Below, in pieces: positions 5,813 through 14,442 of a stretch of DNA of 34,185 nt. Where the stretch lies: contig JAAZIX010000060.1 in assembly GCA_012800655.1 (NCBI GenBank), forward strand, positions 1-34,185. The letters are read 5' to 3'. Made by a program: the position numbers and the translations under genes. The notes beneath the pieces were generated by a model. It was not told the origin of the DNA and ran no database searches. It saw nothing but the letters and a program-made list of their open reading frames with translations. This stretch comes from Clostridiaceae bacterium. GTDB lineage: Bacteria > Bacillota > Clostridia > Saccharofermentanales > Fastidiosipilaceae. Every line of letters begins with the position of its first letter. The first letter of the stretch is position 1.

Positions 5813-6700
5813 GTGTTCGGCTACGTGCGTCCCTGGAAACTCGAGCTGCCGACCTATGAACTTGCGCGGTATCGGTCGGTGTACTGCCGCCTCTGCAAAA
5901 CCCTGGGCGAGCAATACGGACAGCTGTTGCGTCCGGCGGTAACATACGAACTGACCTTTTTCATGCTTTTTTTGGGCGGACTGCTCGACGATGAGCGCCT
6001 CGATGACGGGGAGGCGGAGCGTTGCGTTCTGCACCCGATAAAAAAACATCCGATCGCCGCCCGTCATCCTCTTTATGATCTCGGAGCCGACCTGAGTATT
6101 CTGCTTTTGGGCGCAAAGGTGAAGGACGATATCGCCGATGGCGATCACCGTATACGCAGTGCGCTTTTGAGCCGTCTTTTCAAGAGGCCGTTAAAGAAGG
6201 CCGAAGCGAGGCAAGTGCTTTCGGCTCAGGGAACCGCCCGTATTTTGACAGAGCTCGATGCGATCGAAAGCCCCGGAAGTTCTCGGACCGTGGAGAGTGG
6301 AGCGGCGCGCAAATTCGCGGAGCTCCTGGAGCTGTACGTAGATGCGGCTTTTGAGCATCTGGCCGATAACGACCTTAATCTGCCGGAAAGTCGAGTTCAG
6401 GCGGCGGCACGATTGCTGGTCGGAGAACTGGGGGAGTGGATATATCTGCTTGACGCTCTGGCCGATCTGGAAGCGGATCGCGAGCGCGGCGAGTACAATG
6501 TCTGGGCCGAATACGGCAGCCGCGATGTGGCTTCGGCCGCGGCGGAGTTAAAACTGACGGGTTTGGAGGCAAGCATTAATCGAACGGCAGCCATCCTGCC
6601 TTGGAAACGACACGCCGTCCTGATGCGTAATATCATTCAACACGGTCTGTCGCAGATGCGTTCCCGGGTCAGTGCCGGTGAAAAACCCTGGCTCGTTTGA
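5813..6700 (+). CDS. DUF5685-like family protein
   Basis: MFGYVRPWKLELPTYELARYRSVYCRLCKTLGEQYG N-terminus is typical of the family; helical Cys-containing protein; GTG start with GAGGAA upstream; followed by a J-domain gene. Confidence 0.72.
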   Translation: MFGYVRPWKLELPTYELARYRSVYCRLCKTLGEQYGQLLRPAVTYELTFFMLFLGGLLDDERLDDGEAERCVLHPIKKHPIAARHPLYDLGADLSILLLGAKVKDDIADGDHRIRSALLSRLFKRPLKKAEARQVLSAQGTARILTELDAIESPGSSRTVESGAARKFAELLELYVDAAFEHLADNDLNLPESRVQAAARLLVGELGEWIYLLDALADLEADRERGEYNVWAEYGSRDVASAAAELKLTGLEASINRTAAILPWKRHAVLMRNIIQHGLSQMRSRVSAGEKPWLV

Positions 6701-6758
6701 CATTGTGTGAGATAAAGGACAAGAAAACAATCTCTGTGCCCGCTACATAGAATAATTG

Positions 6759-6767
6759 TGATAGAAT
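6759..6767 (+). promoter_or_regulatory. Predicted extended -10 (TGaTAGAAT) for the J-domain gene
   Basis: TGATAGAAT about 36 nt upstream of ATG 6803. Confidence 0.5.
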
Positions 6768-6802
6768 AAGCTGAAATTTAGACACGAAGGGATAACCGGA
6801 TA

Positions 6803-7249
6803 ATGAGCAATCCATATGAGGTCTTGGGAGTCAGTCCGAACGCATCGGATGAGGAAGTAAAACGCGCCTACAGAGAGCTGGTGCGCACTTATCATCCGGA
6901 TCAATATACGGACCATCCTCTGGAGGATTTGGCCAAGGAAAAAATGCAGGAGGTCAATGACGCCTACAGCCAGATCCAGGCGGAGCGTTCGGGACAGCGT
7001 TCGCCCTATAACCGAGGTCGCACCGGTCAATCACCTTACGGTACCGGTAGCCCTTATGGTCCGCCTTACGGACAGGGAGCCGCGCCTAACACCAATCAAG
7101 GCGCCGGCCAGCAGCGTCGCGATCCTTTCACCCCCGACTCTCCCTACTACGGCCAAGGTCAAAGCAGCTGTTGCGGTCCTTTAGGAACGCTCTGTCTCTT
7201 GGATTCCTGCTGTGAGTGCATGGGGGGAGATTTGTGCACATGCTGTTAA
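6803..7249 (+). CDS. J-domain protein with Gly/Pro/Tyr-rich linker and cysteine-rich C-terminus
   Basis: MSNPYEVLGVSPNASDEEVKRAYRELVRTYHPDQ (HPD motif); C-terminal SSCCGPLGTLCLLDSCCECMGGDLCTCC. Confidence 0.9.
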   Translation: MSNPYEVLGVSPNASDEEVKRAYRELVRTYHPDQYTDHPLEDLAKEKMQEVNDAYSQIQAERSGQRSPYNRGRTGQSPYGTGSPYGPPYGQGAAPNTNQGAGQQRRDPFTPDSPYYGQGQSSCCGPLGTLCLLDSCCECMGGDLCTCC

Positions 7250-7253
7250 TAAA

Positions 7254-7808
7254 GTGAAACGCATGCGTCGCAAACATTTCTGCCTGGCGTTTTGCTCGTT
7301 GACCGTCGCTCTGGAAGTTCTTTTGGCCTGGTTGGTAACCATCTTTCCGCTGGCCGATCTGACGATTTTTGCGGTTATGTCCGCTCTGATTTGCATCGTG
7401 TTGAGTGAATTCAGTTTCCGCTACGCTCTTCTGACGGTTCTTGCCACTGATTTAATAATCAGCTTTTTCCCCGGCTTTCCATTAGTATGGCCGTTTATTG
7501 CTTTTTGGGGAATTTATCCTTTTATCAAAGCCGGTATTGAGAAGTTTTTCAAACAAAAACGCCTTCCTTATGCGGCGACTTTACTGCCTAAATTATTGAT
7601 AGTCGGGCTTTTGGGAGTTCTGTCCGTTTTTTTGGCGGTGAAAATTCTTGGTATCGATTACCACGCTTACCTGACCATCAGTGAAAAAATTCCCTTCGCC
7701 GTCGGCCTAATACTTATGGCCTTGCTTGCCTTGCTTATCGATTATGTTATGACTGTCCTGCTGGCATTTTGGCGGGAGCGCTTGCGCCCCCATTTTCCCA
7801 AAGAGTAG
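7254..7808 (+). CDS. Multi-pass membrane protein, hypothetical
   Basis: About five hydrophobic segments. Listed start 7212 overlaps the J-domain gene; GTG 7254 or ATG 7263 are plausible starts. Confidence 0.65.
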   Translation: MKRMRRKHFCLAFCSLTVALEVLLAWLVTIFPLADLTIFAVMSALICIVLSEFSFRYALLTVLATDLIISFFPGFPLVWPFIAFWGIYPFIKAGIEKFFKQKRLPYAATLLPKLLIVGLLGVLSVFLAVKILGIDYHAYLTISEKIPFAVGLILMALLALLIDYVMTVLLAFWRERLRPHFPKE

Positions 7809-7815
7809 TATGAAT

Positions 7816-9732
7816 TCAATTCCGCCGGCCCAGCCGCCGCTCAAAATATTTTATTAACAGCATATACGCGATCCAAATAATCAAAACAATCAGCCCGCCG
7901 GCGATCAGCCAGAACGTGAAACTGTTGCGCTCGTAAAAGGCTCTGAAAGAGCGCTCGGGCAAAGGTGTGGCGAGGATATTTATGTTACTGCCGATCGGCA
8001 CGATAATATCGCTACCGTCTTGAAGTCGATAGAGGAGATCACCGACCGCGGTTCCGATCTCGACCGGCGGCAACAGACCGTTTTTAGGTCGGAAAATCGG
8101 ATTATTGCTGACCAGGATGTCAATCTCTCGCGGGTGCGTATACCAAACATCACGCAAAGCGACCGGACTGAAGATCTGACCCGCAAATTCCTCATTATGC
8201 GCCAGGATTTCCCCCTGTGAGACCAATTGTGAACGCGTGTATGCGTTGCCTATAGCCTCGTATATCGAACGAATATTCAGTAGGTTCCGGCGAACGATCA
8301 AGTCCAGATCCGTACCGAAAGATGAGCCGCAAAATAAGGCCAGGTAATTCAGTTGCTCCGGGTCGCGATTCATCCCGACGGTGAAAAAGGCCGAATACTC
8401 TCCCGGTTCGCAGGCGATCAAACCGCCGTCCAGACCGGTGGCGGAATCCCACGCGGTAGAAAAATCATTGACAAAGTGGTGAAAACGACCGGCTTCAAGA
8501 AAATTATAATTCTTTCTGCCGACTGTTTCTCTGATGCTTCCGTGGGATAATGCGTATTTTGCAATTTTCCCCAGGTCGCGCAGGGAGGAAATCCCCGAGA
8601 CTGTGCCCTGTGATTCTTTGTTCGGATGAAGATCGACAATAGGGATGTGATCGGGCTTTGCACTATCGGTTTCGTTGGGATTTTTAAATGAACTTATAGA
8701 AAATTCCGTATCGGATAAATTCAGATCACCGGCCTTGACATTCATATGTTTGACGAAAGTTTCAGCATCACCTGCCACGGCCGTTATGAGAGTCTGCATG
8801 GCGATTTCGGAACCTTCCAATAGAAGGGCATTTGTCAGAAAAGCAGCGGAGAAATAGGCATTTCCGTTTTTGAGACTGCGATCCCGACTGTCCTGCGAAG
8901 TGAAAGACGGCACGAAGATCATGTAGTCCGGATAGAGCTTCTCCGTAGCCAAAACGGCCACCATAAGCCGACCCGCAAGGCGGGGAGAAATCAGCCGCTC
9001 AGAGCCGCTCGCATATAAGGTGGAGTCTTGTGAAAGATCCAAAACCAGACATTGTTCGGTGGTCAAAGACAAATTAACAAAGCGGTACTGCTCCGGGCTA
9101 TCAGTGACGAGGTCCTGCGGGCCGAAAGGATAGGGCAATGTTCCGGAATACCAAGGGAAGCGATGGGACTCTGATGGTAGCGTAGGTGGCGTGGTTTGAA
9201 CAGTTGAGGGCTTCGTCGGCGGGGAAGTAGGAGGTACAGTTCTCTGGGGCGGCTTGGTTGTCGGTGTAGTCGGAGGAGATGTAGCAGGCGGATCCGTATC
9301 GGTAGGAGGTTCGGTAGATTCACCGTCGGTTTCGCTCGTATCCGTGGAGACATCAGTGGTGGTGCTTACGGCGGGTTGAGACGTATCAGTTATTGTGTCC
9401 GGATCTACAGTGGTTTCGCTGGGTGTAATGGTGATATCCGTATCCTCGCTTGTTACCGTGGTGGGGTCCGCATCAGATTCGGTTGTGAGGGTAGAGGACA
9501 TATCCGTCGTGATTGATTCTTCCTCTGAAACAGAGGAAGAGGGCAAGGAATTTTCTTCGGAACAAGTGGATTCGGTTGTAGTCCCATCCGGAACGATAAC
9601 GTCGCCGGTTGAGGGTGACGTATCTAACCCTGCAGCATGCGGGACAAGCAGATTTGCGCTGAAGATCAGGCTGACAATAATCAGACTGAGGAATGAGAAA
9701 ATTCTAAATTTTGGGCACACTTTCAGCTTCAT
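7816..9732 (-). CDS. Secreted, membrane-anchored S11 (D-alanyl-D-alanine carboxypeptidase)-like protein, predicted catalytically inactive
   Basis: Signal peptide MKLKVCPKFRIFSFLSLIIVSLIFS, long Thr/Ser/Pro/Asp-rich linker, S11-like domain (e.g. AVAGDAETFVKHMNVKAGDLNLSDTEF), C-terminal TM. SxxK, SxN and KTG motifs are not conserved. Start set at ATG 9732 (GTG 9738 also possible) because the predicted promoter lies too close to ATG 9756. Confidence 0.75.
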   Translation of the reverse strand: MKLKVCPKFRIFSFLSLIIVSLIFSANLLVPHAAGLDTSPSTGDVIVPDGTTTESTCSEENSLPSSSVSEEESITTDMSSTLTTESDADPTTVTSEDTDITITPSETTVDPDTITDTSQPAVSTTTDVSTDTSETDGESTEPPTDTDPPATSPPTTPTTKPPQRTVPPTSPPTKPSTVQTTPPTLPSESHRFPWYSGTLPYPFGPQDLVTDSPEQYRFVNLSLTTEQCLVLDLSQDSTLYASGSERLISPRLAGRLMVAVLATEKLYPDYMIFVPSFTSQDSRDRSLKNGNAYFSAAFLTNALLLEGSEIAMQTLITAVAGDAETFVKHMNVKAGDLNLSDTEFSISSFKNPNETDSAKPDHIPIVDLHPNKESQGTVSGISSLRDLGKIAKYALSHGSIRETVGRKNYNFLEAGRFHHFVNDFSTAWDSATGLDGGLIACEPGEYSAFFTVGMNRDPEQLNYLALFCGSSFGTDLDLIVRRNLLNIRSIYEAIGNAYTRSQLVSQGEILAHNEEFAGQIFSPVALRDVWYTHPREIDILVSNNPIFRPKNGLLPPVEIGTAVGDLLYRLQDGSDIIVPIGSNINILATPLPERSFRAFYERNSFTFWLIAGGLIVLIIWIAYMLLIKYFERRLGRRN

Positions 9733-9761
9733 TTCCACATCGTTTCTCCGATACACTTTGC

Positions 9762-9834: not shown

Positions 9835-9843
9835 TGGTATAAT
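9835..9843 (+). promoter_or_regulatory. Predicted extended -10 promoter (TGgTATAAT) of the M28-like/ATPase/TOPRIM operon
   Basis: TGGTATAAT at 9835-9843; tandem 8-bp repeat CAAGTATT CAAGTATT at 9813-9828 just upstream. Confidence 0.62.
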
Positions 9844-9866
9844 TGTGGGGAAAGGGAATTATTATT

Positions 9867-11162
9867 TTGCAGCGGAGATTAAAACAAAGACGAGCGCGAA
9901 CCTTCATGAAAGTGCTGGCGATAACTCTTGTTCTCGTCACATTTATGACTGCCTGCGGTAGCGCGCCGAAAGAAGAGATTGATACCCTGGATCGTTACGG
10001 TTCCTCCTTGGCGCGTGATTTGGCGCGGCGTCACCCGGAGCGTCCGCCTTATTCGGTGGGGGAGCGAGCAACGGCACAGTTTATTGTGCGTGAGTTCGAA
10101 AAGCTCGGCTATCAGCCGAAGATGCAGTCTTTCAAAGGAGAGCCTTCAGAGGAAGATGCGTCGGTTCCCGAATCGGCGAATATTATCGTGCGGATTCCGG
10201 GCAACGGTTTCGAACGTGATGAGGCTAAGGCTACGGATCTTTTTGGCAAAAAGGATCCTGACAAGCCCGTCGGCCGTTTCAGAGCAACGATCGTCATTGG
10301 TGCACATTACGATACGATCCCTCAGGAGCCTGAGGAAGAAGACGGAGAAGACGAAGAAAAAAGCGAAGAAAAAGGTGAAGAATCAGCCGCGGTTACGTTG
10401 GGTAATTTTGACGGCATCTCGGATAACGCATCGGGTATCGCTGTCTTGCTGGCCTTGGCGCGCGATCTGAAAGAGCAGTCGAGTCCGATCGGTTATGACA
10501 TAATTTTAGCGGCCTTCGGTGCAGGCGCTGATGCCAGACGTGGAAGCCATTATTTCTATAAATCTTTAAGCAAGAGTGAGCGTAATTCCCTGGATTGTGT
10601 CTATATTCTCGAATCGCTCTATGCCGGTGACAACCTCTATGCCAGCGCCGGGCTTTCCTCCGCCCAGCCGGGAAAGAAAATGGACTTGCGCCTGCGCCTG
10701 TATGAATTCAATTTGGCCGCTGTCGACGCAAAAATTCGCCGTGCCTACGGGGTCGATATTTTGAATAATACTTCCTCGCTGAAAATTCCCTTGCCCGGAC
10801 ATGAACCTGAGGAGGGAAAAGAAGCGGAACAGATTTTATACCGCGAGTTTACTTTACATCCAGGCGACTGTGAGCCTTTTGATCTGGCGGGCATTCCCTG
10901 CGTATACATAGAGTCATACAATTATCGCGGCGACACGGTCGAGGAGATGCGCGATAACCGCAGCCCTGAATTTGCCTCCGTAAACGGCAATATGCGAGGC
11001 AGTAGATTTGACTCGACCCGGACCCTGGATGAAATAATGCCCGATAATACTTTGACTCTGCGTATCAATGCGGTGGCTAGGACGCTGTCCTTCGTTGTCA
11101 AGAGAGGTCTGCTTGATGCGAAGGTAGCCGACGGAGGCGGCAATTCGACGGATAATACATGA
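9867..11162 (+). CDS. M28 family peptidase-like lipoprotein, predicted catalytically degenerate
   Basis: Signal/lipobox-like MKVLAITLVLVTFMTACGS; M28-like motifs GAHYDT and SDNASGIAVLLALA retained; downstream ligand motifs altered. Start set at TTG 9867 (SD ggggaaaggga) because the listed 9843 start coincides with the -10 element. Confidence 0.75.
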   Translation: MQRRLKQRRARTFMKVLAITLVLVTFMTACGSAPKEEIDTLDRYGSSLARDLARRHPERPPYSVGERATAQFIVREFEKLGYQPKMQSFKGEPSEEDASVPESANIIVRIPGNGFERDEAKATDLFGKKDPDKPVGRFRATIVIGAHYDTIPQEPEEEDGEDEEKSEEKGEESAAVTLGNFDGISDNASGIAVLLALARDLKEQSSPIGYDIILAAFGAGADARRGSHYFYKSLSKSERNSLDCVYILESLYAGDNLYASAGLSSAQPGKKMDLRLRLYEFNLAAVDAKIRRAYGVDILNNTSSLKIPLPGHEPEEGKEAEQILYREFTLHPGDCEPFDLAGIPCVYIESYNYRGDTVEEMRDNRSPEFASVNGNMRGSRFDSTRTLDEIMPDNTLTLRINAVARTLSFVVKRGLLDAKVADGGGNSTDNT

Positions 11163-12421
11163 TAGTCGGCTTAACACTGCGAAATTTTGCCCTTTTCACG
11201 GAACTTAGGTTCGGTTTGGTCGAGCCTGAGTCGCCGTCATTATCCGAGGCGCGACTTAACCCGCTAACAGCTATAATCGGTCGCAACAACAGCGGTAAGA
11301 GCACGATTTTAGAGTCGCTGGACTTCTTAGCCGATTGTCTGCGTGTCGGGGTAAGAGCTGCGGCAACCCGCAATCATCGCGGCGGCTTCAGTAAGCTTCG
11401 TCATGAAGGAAGTACCGAGCCCGTATCTCTGGAAATTGTTTTGAATCTGCCCGAGCATAATTTAGTGAGGTATACGCTAGAAATTTCCGCGGATCGCCAG
11501 GGACGCCCCTTTGTGAATCGTGAACGCCTGGAGAAATTAGGTACGGACGGGATATCTGAGGTATATTTAGATCTTAAGGAAGGGCAGGGAAAGGTTCGAG
11601 GCAAAAATAGTCCCAGCGCGACCGGCGTCAATGATTTAATTTATCCGGCTTTGTCCTTGTACGGCCGTTTGAGCGATGTGCCGTCCTGCTTCCGGGATAC
11701 TTTATACCTGTTGACCCGGATATTTTTCTTCCGTCTGGACAGTAAGTCTTCCGCTCAAAAAGATCTCGATCGCGAGGGCTCGGCCGCGCATCTGGATCTC
11801 GCTCAGGGCAGGGGAGGACATAAGCACCTGAACAGCAACGGCACCAATGTCCGGAATGTTCTTGTCTGGTTACGTGAGGAAGAGCCGCTAAAGTATGAGC
11901 GGATCATGAATCTTATCGATCAGCGTTTGCCTTTGAGTCCGCGCCTGCGCCGTGATCTGCAATCCGGTCTCTATAACAGCGGTGAAGCGCGGTTCTTTAT
12001 CCTTCAGCTTCTCTTATTGGATCCTGACCCGCGCCCCGTCATACTGCTGGATAATCCCGACAGCGGCATGTTTTATACGCTCCAATCTGCTCTCGGTCTG
12101 GCTTTGCGCGAGTACGAACTGACGCGCCGAGGCCAGGTGATACTGAGTACGCATAACACCAATCTCCTCGATACGTTTGCGCCTTCCGAAGTCTGGTATT
12201 TGCCCGGGCCGCCGCAGATTGAGGGCAGGACGGAGCCCGGGCCGAGTACGACCTGGGATTTGCTGAGTGAATATTCCGAGATCGATCCGGGCGCGAGTGA
12301 AGGCGTTACTTATGACTCCGAAGTACGAGCCGACTGTGCTGCGGACGACCCGATTATACGAGCAATGTACGATGAAGGAATGTCTATGGGGATACTCTGG
12401 TACCAGGGGTATTTTACGTAA
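11159..12421 (+). CDS. AAA/ABC-type ATPase (RecF/OLD-like, AAA_21-like)
   Basis: Walker A GRNNSGKST; signature-like SGEARFFILQLLLL; Walker B-like PVILLDNPD; H-loop-like VILSTHNTNLLD; ATGA overlap with the upstream gene. Confidence 0.85.
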   Translation: MIVGLTLRNFALFTELRFGLVEPESPSLSEARLNPLTAIIGRNNSGKSTILESLDFLADCLRVGVRAAATRNHRGGFSKLRHEGSTEPVSLEIVLNLPEHNLVRYTLEISADRQGRPFVNRERLEKLGTDGISEVYLDLKEGQGKVRGKNSPSATGVNDLIYPALSLYGRLSDVPSCFRDTLYLLTRIFFFRLDSKSSAQKDLDREGSAAHLDLAQGRGGHKHLNSNGTNVRNVLVWLREEEPLKYERIMNLIDQRLPLSPRLRRDLQSGLYNSGEARFFILQLLLLDPDPRPVILLDNPDSGMFYTLQSALGLALREYELTRRGQVILSTHNTNLLDTFAPSEVWYLPGPPQIEGRTEPGPSTTWDLLSEYSEIDPGASEGVTYDSEVRADCAADDPIIRAMYDEGMSMGILWYQGYFT

Positions 12422-13096
12422 ATGATCAGCGTTGAGGCATTGGTCGAAGACAGATCCGGCTCGGTAATTCTCGGCGGTATCCTCGATGCTTTTACCTCTG
12501 TCAGCGACACACCTTTTTCTTACCGTCTTCATCCGCATCGCGGTATCGGTTCTCCTCGCTTCGATTGGAACCGCCGACCCGATCCGATGGCAACAACACT
12601 CTTTGCGCTCTTACCGGCGGAATTGCGTGCCTATAACCGGGTTCTGTCTCCGGCGAAGAACTTGGTGATCATAGTGTTCGATGCCGATGACGGCAATCCG
12701 GAAAATTTGAAAGAAACCGTCGGTCATATGACGCGTAAATTCTTACCGGACTTACCGGCTGTCATAGGAGTCGCAGTCGAGGAATTGGAGTCTTGGTTGC
12801 TGGGTGATGTTGCCGCTCTGAAGTCGGCCTATCCCGACGGCCATTTCGAACATTGGAAAAACTACCGGCAGGACAGCATATGCGGCACTTGGGAAGTCCT
12901 TTGCCGAATTATTATGGGTTCAAAGGCTGAGGAGCTGATCGCACTCGGCTATCCCGCCGTGGGTCAGTTCAAGTACGAGTGGGCCGAAAGAATCGCTCCC
13001 CACCTGTCTGTCGAAACAAATGCTTCTCCCAGTCTGCACAGGTTTATCCACAGGCTGGAATCGGTTATGAGCGATATGACCGGAGCGAGCAACTGA
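12422..13096 (+). CDS. TOPRIM-like/DUF4276-like protein
   Basis: ALVEDRSGS (TOPRIM motif I-like), HPHRGIGS, LVIIVFDADD (DxD), VAVEELESWLLGD; start abuts the ATPase stop codon. Confidence 0.65.
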   Translation: MISVEALVEDRSGSVILGGILDAFTSVSDTPFSYRLHPHRGIGSPRFDWNRRPDPMATTLFALLPAELRAYNRVLSPAKNLVIIVFDADDGNPENLKETVGHMTRKFLPDLPAVIGVAVEELESWLLGDVAALKSAYPDGHFEHWKNYRQDSICGTWEVLCRIIMGSKAEELIALGYPAVGQFKYEWAERIAPHLSVETNASPSLHRFIHRLESVMSDMTGASN

Positions 13097-14337
13097 TGGA
13101 GGCAGATAATAACTCCGCGGAGCGGACATTTTATCTTCGTCGGCCTTTGCCGCGCAGTTTATACATTCATTTGCCTTTTTGTATTCGTCGTTGTCCTTAT
13201 TGCGATTTCTTTTCCACGGTCGGTCAAGAGAACTTCTTTCCACAGTATCAAAAAGCATTGCTTTCCGAGGTCAGATTAGTCGGGTGCGAAGTTGATTTCC
13301 TGCGCGGGCGGGATCCTGAGTACAACGGAGTTGAAACTGTTTATTTCGGGGGCGGAACGCCGTCGCTTTGGTCTTCCGAGCATATCGAACAGCTTCTGGA
13401 AAGTATCGGGACGTTTGTAGGGATTGCGGACGGCTGCGAAATTACTTTGGAAGCTAATCCTTCCTCGCTTTCATTTCGTCATCTTTCGGATTTGCGCGCC
13501 GCCGGAATAAATCGTCTCAGTATCGGCGTTCAGGCCACCGATGATAACCTCTTGCGCAAAATCGGCCGTCTGCATAACCGTGCCGAAGCGGAAGCGGCCC
13601 TGAAAGGCGCGGAGAAGGCCGGTTTTGCCAATATCGGTATAGATTTGATGATCGGTCTGCCAGCCCAAACTATCGCCGATATAAAGTCCTCTCTTGCCTG
13701 GTTGCGAGAATACCCGATTCAACATGTATCGGCATATTCGCTGATTATTGAACCGGATACACCTTTCGCTGATCTGTATTCCCCCGGCGGGAGTTTATAC
13801 CGGGAGCTTCCTGACCCGGAGGATGAACGTAAACAGTGGTATACGCTCCGTGAGGGCCTGAAGGCATTTGGCTTTGAGCATTATGAAATCAGCAATTTTG
13901 CCTGCCCCGGTTATCGCTCCCGCCACAACAGCGCATATTGGAGCGGGGATATGTACTGGGGGTTGGGTGCCGGGGCACATAGTTATTATCGTTCCCGCAA
14001 TGATATCTGTCCGCAGCGCCGCGCTAATCTGAACGATCTATCCGCATATGCCGAGCGGGTTGAACGAGCCGATCAGATTTCCGCAATGGGTGAATTAACG
14101 GAAGTCATGGATGCAGCGGATATTGAGAAAGAATTTTTCCTGTTGGGCTTGCGGATTTTGGACGGGGTTGATCTACGTAACTTTACGGAGCGATTCGGGC
14201 ATGAAGTGCCCGCAAGTATACGGCTGATCTTGGAGAAGTTGGTTGGGATACAGTTGCTCATTGAAGAGAGCAGTGTCTATCGCCTGAGTCTTAAGGGCGA
14301 GGACTATGGTAACCGGGTTTTCAGCGAATTCATCTAG
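13096..14337 (+). CDS. hemW: Radical SAM heme chaperone / coproporphyrinogen oxidase-like protein HemW
   Basis: LYIHLPFCIRRCPYCDFFS (CxxxCxxC), TVYFGGGTPSLW, IGVQATDDNLLRKIGRLH, YEISNFACPGYRSRHNSAYWSG; located 5' of hrcA as in many Firmicutes. Start ATG 13096 overlaps the TOPRIM stop (TGATG). Confidence 0.92.
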   Translation: MEADNNSAERTFYLRRPLPRSLYIHLPFCIRRCPYCDFFSTVGQENFFPQYQKALLSEVRLVGCEVDFLRGRDPEYNGVETVYFGGGTPSLWSSEHIEQLLESIGTFVGIADGCEITLEANPSSLSFRHLSDLRAAGINRLSIGVQATDDNLLRKIGRLHNRAEAEAALKGAEKAGFANIGIDLMIGLPAQTIADIKSSLAWLREYPIQHVSAYSLIIEPDTPFADLYSPGGSLYRELPDPEDERKQWYTLREGLKAFGFEHYEISNFACPGYRSRHNSAYWSGDMYWGLGAGAHSYYRSRNDICPQRRANLNDLSAYAERVERADQISAMGELTEVMDAADIEKEFFLLGLRILDGVDLRNFTERFGHEVPASIRLILEKLVGIQLLIEESSVYRLSLKGEDYGNRVFSEFI

Positions 14338-14382: not shown

Positions 14383-14411
14383 TTGACATTCGTTTAAAAG
14401 AGTGGTAAATT
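14383..14411 (+). promoter_or_regulatory. Sigma-A promoter of hrcA-grpE-dnaK-dnaJ
   Basis: TTGACA - 17 nt - TAAATT with TG extension, directly upstream of CIRCE. Confidence 0.85.
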
Positions 14412-14415
14412 ACTC

Positions 14416-14442
14416 TTAGCACTCGAAGGATGAGAGTGCTAA
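14416..14442. promoter_or_regulatory. CIRCE element (HrcA operator)
   Basis: Perfect TTAGCACTC-gaaggatga-GAGTGCTAA. Confidence 0.98.

Follow-up and report, generated by a model that had tools for sequence, protein, structure and literature searches.

A HEC-01-type ATPase-TOPRIM gene pair beside hemW in an order of Clostridia: a possible case of domestication of a mobile module

The locus and its gene products

The window, i.e. the whole stretch of 34,185 nucleotides that was analysed, contains two adjacent and intact open reading frames on the forward strand. The first (11159-12421) encodes an ABC/AAA_21-type, HEC-01A-like ATPase of 420 aa, and the second (12422-13096) a small TOPRIM/DUF4276-like, HEC-01B-like putative nuclease of 224 aa. 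There is no spacing between them: the TAA of the ATPase gene ends at 12421 and the ATG of the TOPRIM gene begins at 12422. The gene upstream (9843-11162, forward strand) encodes a lipoprotein of the M28 peptidase family (Peptidase_M28, E 8.1e-15) and is the same neighbour in many relatives; its stop codon overlaps the ATG of the ATPase gene by 4 bases (ATGA). At the other end the stop of the TOPRIM gene (TGA, 13094-13096) and the start of hemW (ATG, 13096-13098) have one base in common in the sequence TGATG (13094-13098, forward strand). The hemW gene itself (radical SAM, HemN_C; 13096-14337, forward strand) is the constant downstream neighbour by synteny, and in 52 relatives it overlaps the TOPRIM gene by either 1 or 4 bases. 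Judging from these overlaps, the series M28-ATPase-TOPRIM-hemW reads as a single coupled unit. This agrees with the first-pass annotation, made from the DNA letters, which had described a split ATPase and TOPRIM-type pair translationally coupled to the lipoprotein gene and to hemW, and whose reading frames and motifs were all found at the positions it gave. The pair is more than a chance arrangement, since many genomes conserve the two reading frames as neighbours and the catalytic columns are invariant.

The pair had also been described as fused into the heat-shock neighbourhood, which turned out to be a matter of adjacency only. The heat-shock operon (hrcA-grpE-dnaK) is a neighbour that lies outside the unit, since hrcA has a promoter-like site and a perfect CIRCE operator of its own (together 14383-14442, forward strand; promoter-like site 14383-14411). 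The CIRCE element is found between hemW and hrcA, just 3' of the promoter-like site, and comprises 27 bases (14416-14442, TTAGCACTC-N9-GAGTGCTAA). We note that the gene beyond the lipoprotein gene (7819-9756, reverse strand) encodes a Peptidase_S11-like protein (D-Ala-D-Ala carboxypeptidase, sub-threshold) with a long N-terminal stretch rich in Thr, Pro and Ser; it adjoins the M28 gene in several relatives too.

The ATPase matched Pfam AAA_21 (E 2.5e-24) and, over its full length, the PADLOC profile HEC-01A (PDLC04181, E 3.8e-56), which was matched by 39/39 scanned ATPases. The small protein matched the PADLOC profile HEC-01B (PDLC04205, E 1.9e-57), whereas its match to Pfam DUF4276 (E 2.2e-5) was sub-threshold (25.2 vs 30.2 bits); DUF4276 was matched by all 46 relatives at E<=0.1. 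The PADLOC search that had been proposed earlier thus returned HEC-01A and HEC-01B for the two genes, and the suggestion of an undescribed module has to be given up, as both proteins match an already catalogued candidate defence system. In the open literature, almost nothing was found on HEC-01 or DUF4276.

The model of the ATPase (pLDDT 85.5) matches the folds of GajA, OLD, SMC heads and PtuA. The AF2 model of the small protein (pLDDT 94.6) shows an alternation of strands and helices in which Glu9 ends strand 1 and Asp87/Asp89 end strand 3, as in TOPRIM domains. When this model was compared with the PDB by Foldseek, no match had an E below 1e-3 and only generic alpha/beta matches were seen; sequence searches of the PDB gave nothing usable. 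Its best match in BFVD was an RloB-like protein (E 7.9e-4, prob 0.99), and RloB has been reported to be related to OLD_TOPRIM and AbiLii (PMC10440598).

Distribution, descent and relatives outside the order

The distribution was investigated by searching 188 genomes of the order, i.e. Clostridia of the Saccharofermentans/Mageeibacillus type (presumably the Saccharofermentanales of GTDB), with a profile built from the small protein. The protein was found in 137 of the 188 genomes, and in 83 of the 106 genomes of good quality; 51 genomes (27%) were without a match. In a sample of the class 17 of 393 genomes were matched, and all 17 belong to the order of the window. Occurrence in the rest of the phylum is sporadic, HEC-01B being found in 11/300 and 9/399 genomes of two samples, both of which include the genome of the window. 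Those of the best 80 public loci that are named belong to Saccharofermentans, Mageeibacillus and other Clostridia, and the loci are mostly from rumen, gut and digester bins.

The position of the pair is conspicuously constant. The ATPase, TOPRIM and hemW genes are adjacent in 79/79 scored named loci, and in the 80th (L137) the matched TOPRIM gene is likewise flanked by the ATPase gene and hemW. The upstream neighbours vary by family (M28/NfeD/SPFH, or CoaD/unknown), with hemW downstream. The pair is essentially single-copy; the exceptions are two genomes in which a further contig carries another full match, and one gene that an assembly break has divided. In L108 and L124, which are public copies of one of the two-copy genomes, each copy has its own hemW. 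Genomes without the pair have a clean empty site, the flanks being joined directly as M28-NfeD-SPFH-hemW-hrcA. In one genome (L031) the orientation of hemW is reversed at its usual place, so that it runs towards the TOPRIM gene (6417-7646, forward, vs 7664-8341, reverse) with the pair still adjoining, which means that co-translation of the pair with hemW is not obligatory.

Mapped on a four-gene tree, the pair shows at least five presence/absence changes, for which one gain and several losses are the simplest account, the tree by itself not separating gain from loss. These changes, together with the 27% of genomes without the pair, indicate that the pair is not essential everywhere. The first-pass annotation had held that a defence role would become unlikely if the pair were core, vertically inherited and fixed beside hemW in all relatives; a single site and vertical inheritance were indeed found throughout the order, but the pair is not universal. 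It had further remarked that lepA sits at this place in many Firmicutes. This does not hold here: lepA is elsewhere in 55/58 genomes, whether the pair is present or absent, and the pair-less loci also have no lepA at this position, so a simple replacement of lepA by the pair was rejected.

Vertical descent is supported by several lines of evidence. The pairwise identities of the TOPRIM protein and of the ATPase are correlated with those of HemW (r 0.91-0.93), and in the tree of the pair a single branch separates each of the families f1, f2 and f3 from the rest. A profile of nucleotide identity over the locus does not fall at the pair relative to its neighbours. The median dN/dS of close sequence pairs was 0.057 for the TOPRIM gene, 0.072 for the ATPase gene and 0.106 for hemW. 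In some species pairs the dS of the gene pair is low compared with that of hemW, which suggested recent horizontal exchange within the genus; this was rejected on the basis of the nucleotide profile, because hemW evolves fast there and the pair resembles its other neighbours. A mobile island is likewise contradicted by the synteny, by distances that track those of HemW and by the even identity along the locus.

The relatives of the TOPRIM protein outside the order are 31-35% identical to it and have the same pair arrangement. Their carriers are a megaplasmid of Rahnella, where the pair lies in prophage DNA with antitermination genes on one side and lysis genes on the other, the conjugative plasmid pGLE121P3, one gut phage contig and three contigs from IMG/VR; further members sought in E. 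coli were not found. In the joint tree the pairs of the order form one clade (support 100) on a long stem (1.24), nested among the phage and plasmid relatives. The first-pass annotation had proposed a role in phage defence. An immune origin is likely, because the closest outside relatives ride on phages and plasmids, whereas an active, mobile defence role is weakened by the single order-wide site, the vertical inheritance and the strong purifying selection. L245 and L233, which are prophage DNA, carry a HEC-01-type pair between replication/antitermination and lysis genes, a position that is likely to be an accessory-gene slot for phage-borne defence.

Catalytic motifs of the two proteins

The motifs of the ATPase are unequally conserved. 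The Walker A motif GRNNSGKST (residues 41-49; 11279-11305) has retained Lys47 in 91/91 relatives, and the H-loop STHNTNLLD (residues 330-338; 12146-12172) has retained His332 in 90/91. The C-terminus of the ATPase is also conserved, with the pattern G[VI]GMGAIWYxGHLD. At the position of the ABC signature (11975-11992) the protein of the window has NSGEAR, where all outside relatives examined have SDGT(L/I)K. In the Walker B motif VILLDNPD (12038-12061) the alignment of the ATPases from the order and from outside places Asn299 at the position of the catalytic Glu. Walker A, H-loop, signature position and Walker B are all on the forward strand. The outside ATPases without exception (12/12) combine the SDGT(L/I)K signature with a Walker B motif that has two Glu residues (EEPE). 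Among the 91 ATPases of the order, the position of the catalytic Glu is occupied by Thr (48), Ser (12), Glu (10), Asn (9), Ala (6) or Gln (4). In other words, the OLD-type set of an ABC ATPase, i.e. Walker A, signature, Walker B Glu and H-loop, is incomplete in most members, including that of the window. Since the replacement residues differ between families, the alignment suggests that the catalytic Glu was lost several times independently in the order. The SDGT signature is present in only 1/91 ATPases of the order; this is L137 (G038:C101), at the hemW locus, in which both the signature (SDGTLK) and the Walker B motif (EEPE) are intact. It is the sole such member found, and from its sequence it is possible that its intact motifs represent the ancestral state.

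The TOPRIM side shows the opposite tendency. The TOPRIM-type Glu9 (12446-12448), which is part of VEDRSG (residues 8-13) at the end of strand 1, was found in 93/94 relatives, with one gap, and in 8/8 outside sequences. Asp87 and Asp89 form the DxD motif (12680-12688) within FDADD (residues 86-90) at the end of strand 3 and are present in 94/94 relatives and in 8/8 outside sequences. A third motif, EELESWLLGD (12779-12808), lies within VEELESWLLGD (residues 119-129), and in the alignment of the order its residues Glu120, Glu121, Glu123, Trp125 and Asp129 are invariant. These motifs, too, are on the forward strand. Of 20 columns that are invariant outside the order, 19 remain at least 90% conserved within it.

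Possible functions and comparison with known systems

We propose that a mobile ATPase-TOPRIM module was captured once and then domesticated as a nucleotide-gated and probably non-hydrolysing nuclease complex, a reading to which we give about even chances of being correct. A module of the HEC-01 type would have come from a mobile element into the ancestor of the order, would have been placed before hemW, and would since have been passed on by vertical descent as a pair of translationally coupled, near-core genes. The ATPase would probably bind nucleotide as a dimer, with poor or no hydrolysis in most members because these are missing the ABC signature and the Walker B Glu. It may be a switch that responds to the state of the nucleotide and, in the manner of GajA, keeps in position a TOPRIM nuclease that would still be active, so that DNA or RNA would be cleaved once the bound nucleotide is lost or changed. 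The module would now serve mainly a host function, such as maintenance of the genome or control of the cell cycle or of stress, rather than immunity in an arms race. GajA offers a precedent, as it is devoid of ATPase activity, and nucleotides bound to its ATPase-like domain keep the TOPRIM nuclease repressed until binding is lost, which activates the nuclease (PMC8136825). Retained nucleotide binding along with a lost trans-acting signature and a lost catalytic base would fit such a sensor or scaffold. Nevertheless, loss of the motif does not prove loss of hydrolysis, since Cran1 retained ATPase activity when either Walker B Glu was changed to Ala (PMC12796447), and the catalytic Glu that is still present in 10/91 members of the order counts against a uniform loss. 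If the wider interpretation is correct, the pair would be a case of full bacterial domestication, in which an immune module of phages and plasmids became a non-hydrolysing sensor with a housekeeping nuclease, a counterpart of the archaeal Cran1; we consider this slightly more doubtful than the mechanism above.

The main competitor is a chromosomally fixed abortive-infection system akin to HEC-01, AbiL or PARIS, in which the ATPase would sense infection and free a toxic TOPRIM nuclease. A fixed immune system would be equally vertical and conserved, the HEC-01 profiles are matched by the TOPRIM protein and by all scanned ATPases, the nearest outside relatives are at accessory positions in prophage DNA, on a conjugative plasmid and on phage contigs, the repeated clean losses suit a dispensable system, and in related pairs AAA ATPases neutralise TOPRIM_OLD toxins (PMC10440598). 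It is, on the other hand, conspicuous that there is no island and no turnover, the pair being at a single site and in single copy throughout the order, that dN/dS is low and the identity level similar to that of neighbouring housekeeping genes, and that the catalytic residues of the ATPase are eroded in this clade only. We therefore favour domestication, and regard fixed abortive immunity as having perhaps one chance in three.

A role in RNA processing is possible but unsupported, and we consider it improbable. The TOPRIM protein would then be a stable-RNA maturase or a tRNA nuclease belonging to the neighbourhood of translation and heat-shock genes, for instance a stand-in for RNase M5; RNA is the substrate of TOPRIM nucleases such as RNase M5 and AriB. 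RNase M5 (TIGR00334, E 1e-10) was found in 0/58 related genomes of the order, with positive controls in B. subtilis and L. lactis, but it is equally absent where the pair is absent, so there is no complementary pattern, and its replacement by the pair was rejected. The pattern of lepA is not complementary either, and the sequences show no tie to RNA recognition. That the pair is what is left of an old mobile element, in decay or carried along neutrally and retained only by linkage to hemW, could account for the eroded ATPase motifs in most members and for the repeated losses, but this very improbable reading is already contradicted by the selection data (dN/dS 0.06-0.07), by reading frames that are intact across the order, by the invariant TOPRIM catalytic columns in 94 sequences and by the persistence of the pair where hemW is inverted.

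The family and its two-gene layout are already known from HEC-01 and, more widely, from AbiL/RloAB and PARIS. As far as the literature consulted shows, three points are new: that the pair is fixed beside hemW across an order, that its origin is nested among mobile modules, and that decay has affected the site of the ATPase only, that of the TOPRIM protein being fully kept. Defence catalogues take an ATPase-TOPRIM pair found by profiles as immune, whereas the present pair is a near-core gene pair, and a directional change of the catalytic site separates it from its mobile relatives. The number of HEC-01 systems that PADLOC reports for Clostridia of the rumen and gut may therefore not be a measure of immunity, and if the domestication proposal is true, defence-finding tools mis-call the pair as immunity throughout the order. 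The order would then be a natural experiment on immune switches that turn into host genes. The proposal predicts that ATP is bound but not hydrolysed, and that the nuclease is required for function.

Of the known systems, HEC-01 (PADLOC Hma-embedded candidate 01) is the closest, since the pair of the window matches both of its profiles over nearly the full length, in the same gene order, and has the ATPase and TOPRIM motifs in common with it at the family level, the genes being adjacent and in one operon. The difference is that the pair of the window is fixed at one chromosomal site order-wide, neither sporadic nor mobile, and that the ATPases of the order are mostly without the ABC signature and the Walker B Glu. 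Sporadic occurrence is seen outside the order, whereas within it the pair sits at the hemW locus and not beside defence or mobile genes.

AbiL/RloAB likewise consists of a split AAA ATPase and an OLD_TOPRIM-like partner. The ATPase of the window matches AbiLi (E 1.6e-17) and the best viral structure match of the TOPRIM model is the RloB-like protein, while the PADLOC profile of AbiLii gave no match with the small protein. AbiL, however, is a plasmid-borne abortive infection system, whereas the pair of the window is chromosomal and core-like. PARIS (AriA/AriB, class 4 OLD) is also a split pair, and its AriB acts on RNA (PMC12409363). The ATPase of the window matches an AriA profile (E 1.6e-21) in the region that Pfam AAA_21 also covers, and an AriB profile is absent among the 14 PADLOC profile matches of the small protein; moreover, the pair of the window is outside any phage-satellite hotspot.

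With GajA (Gabija, class 2 OLD) the pair has the fold of the ATPase domain in common (best PDB hit 8x5i), and the analogy that we propose is a TOPRIM nuclease gated by nucleotide binding without hydrolysis. GajA is one fused protein that is accompanied by the GajB helicase, whereas here the two proteins are encoded by separate genes whose neighbours are M28 peptidase/SPFH/CoaD and HemW, with no GajB. Cran1 (class 5 OLD), finally, is an OLD-type ATPase/nuclease that is conserved across the Sulfolobales and has a cell-cycle role with no apparent antiviral role (PMC12796447), i.e. it is order-wide and apparently not for defence. It differs from the pair of the window in being an archaeal, single protein that has kept all active-site residues and has an active ATPase.
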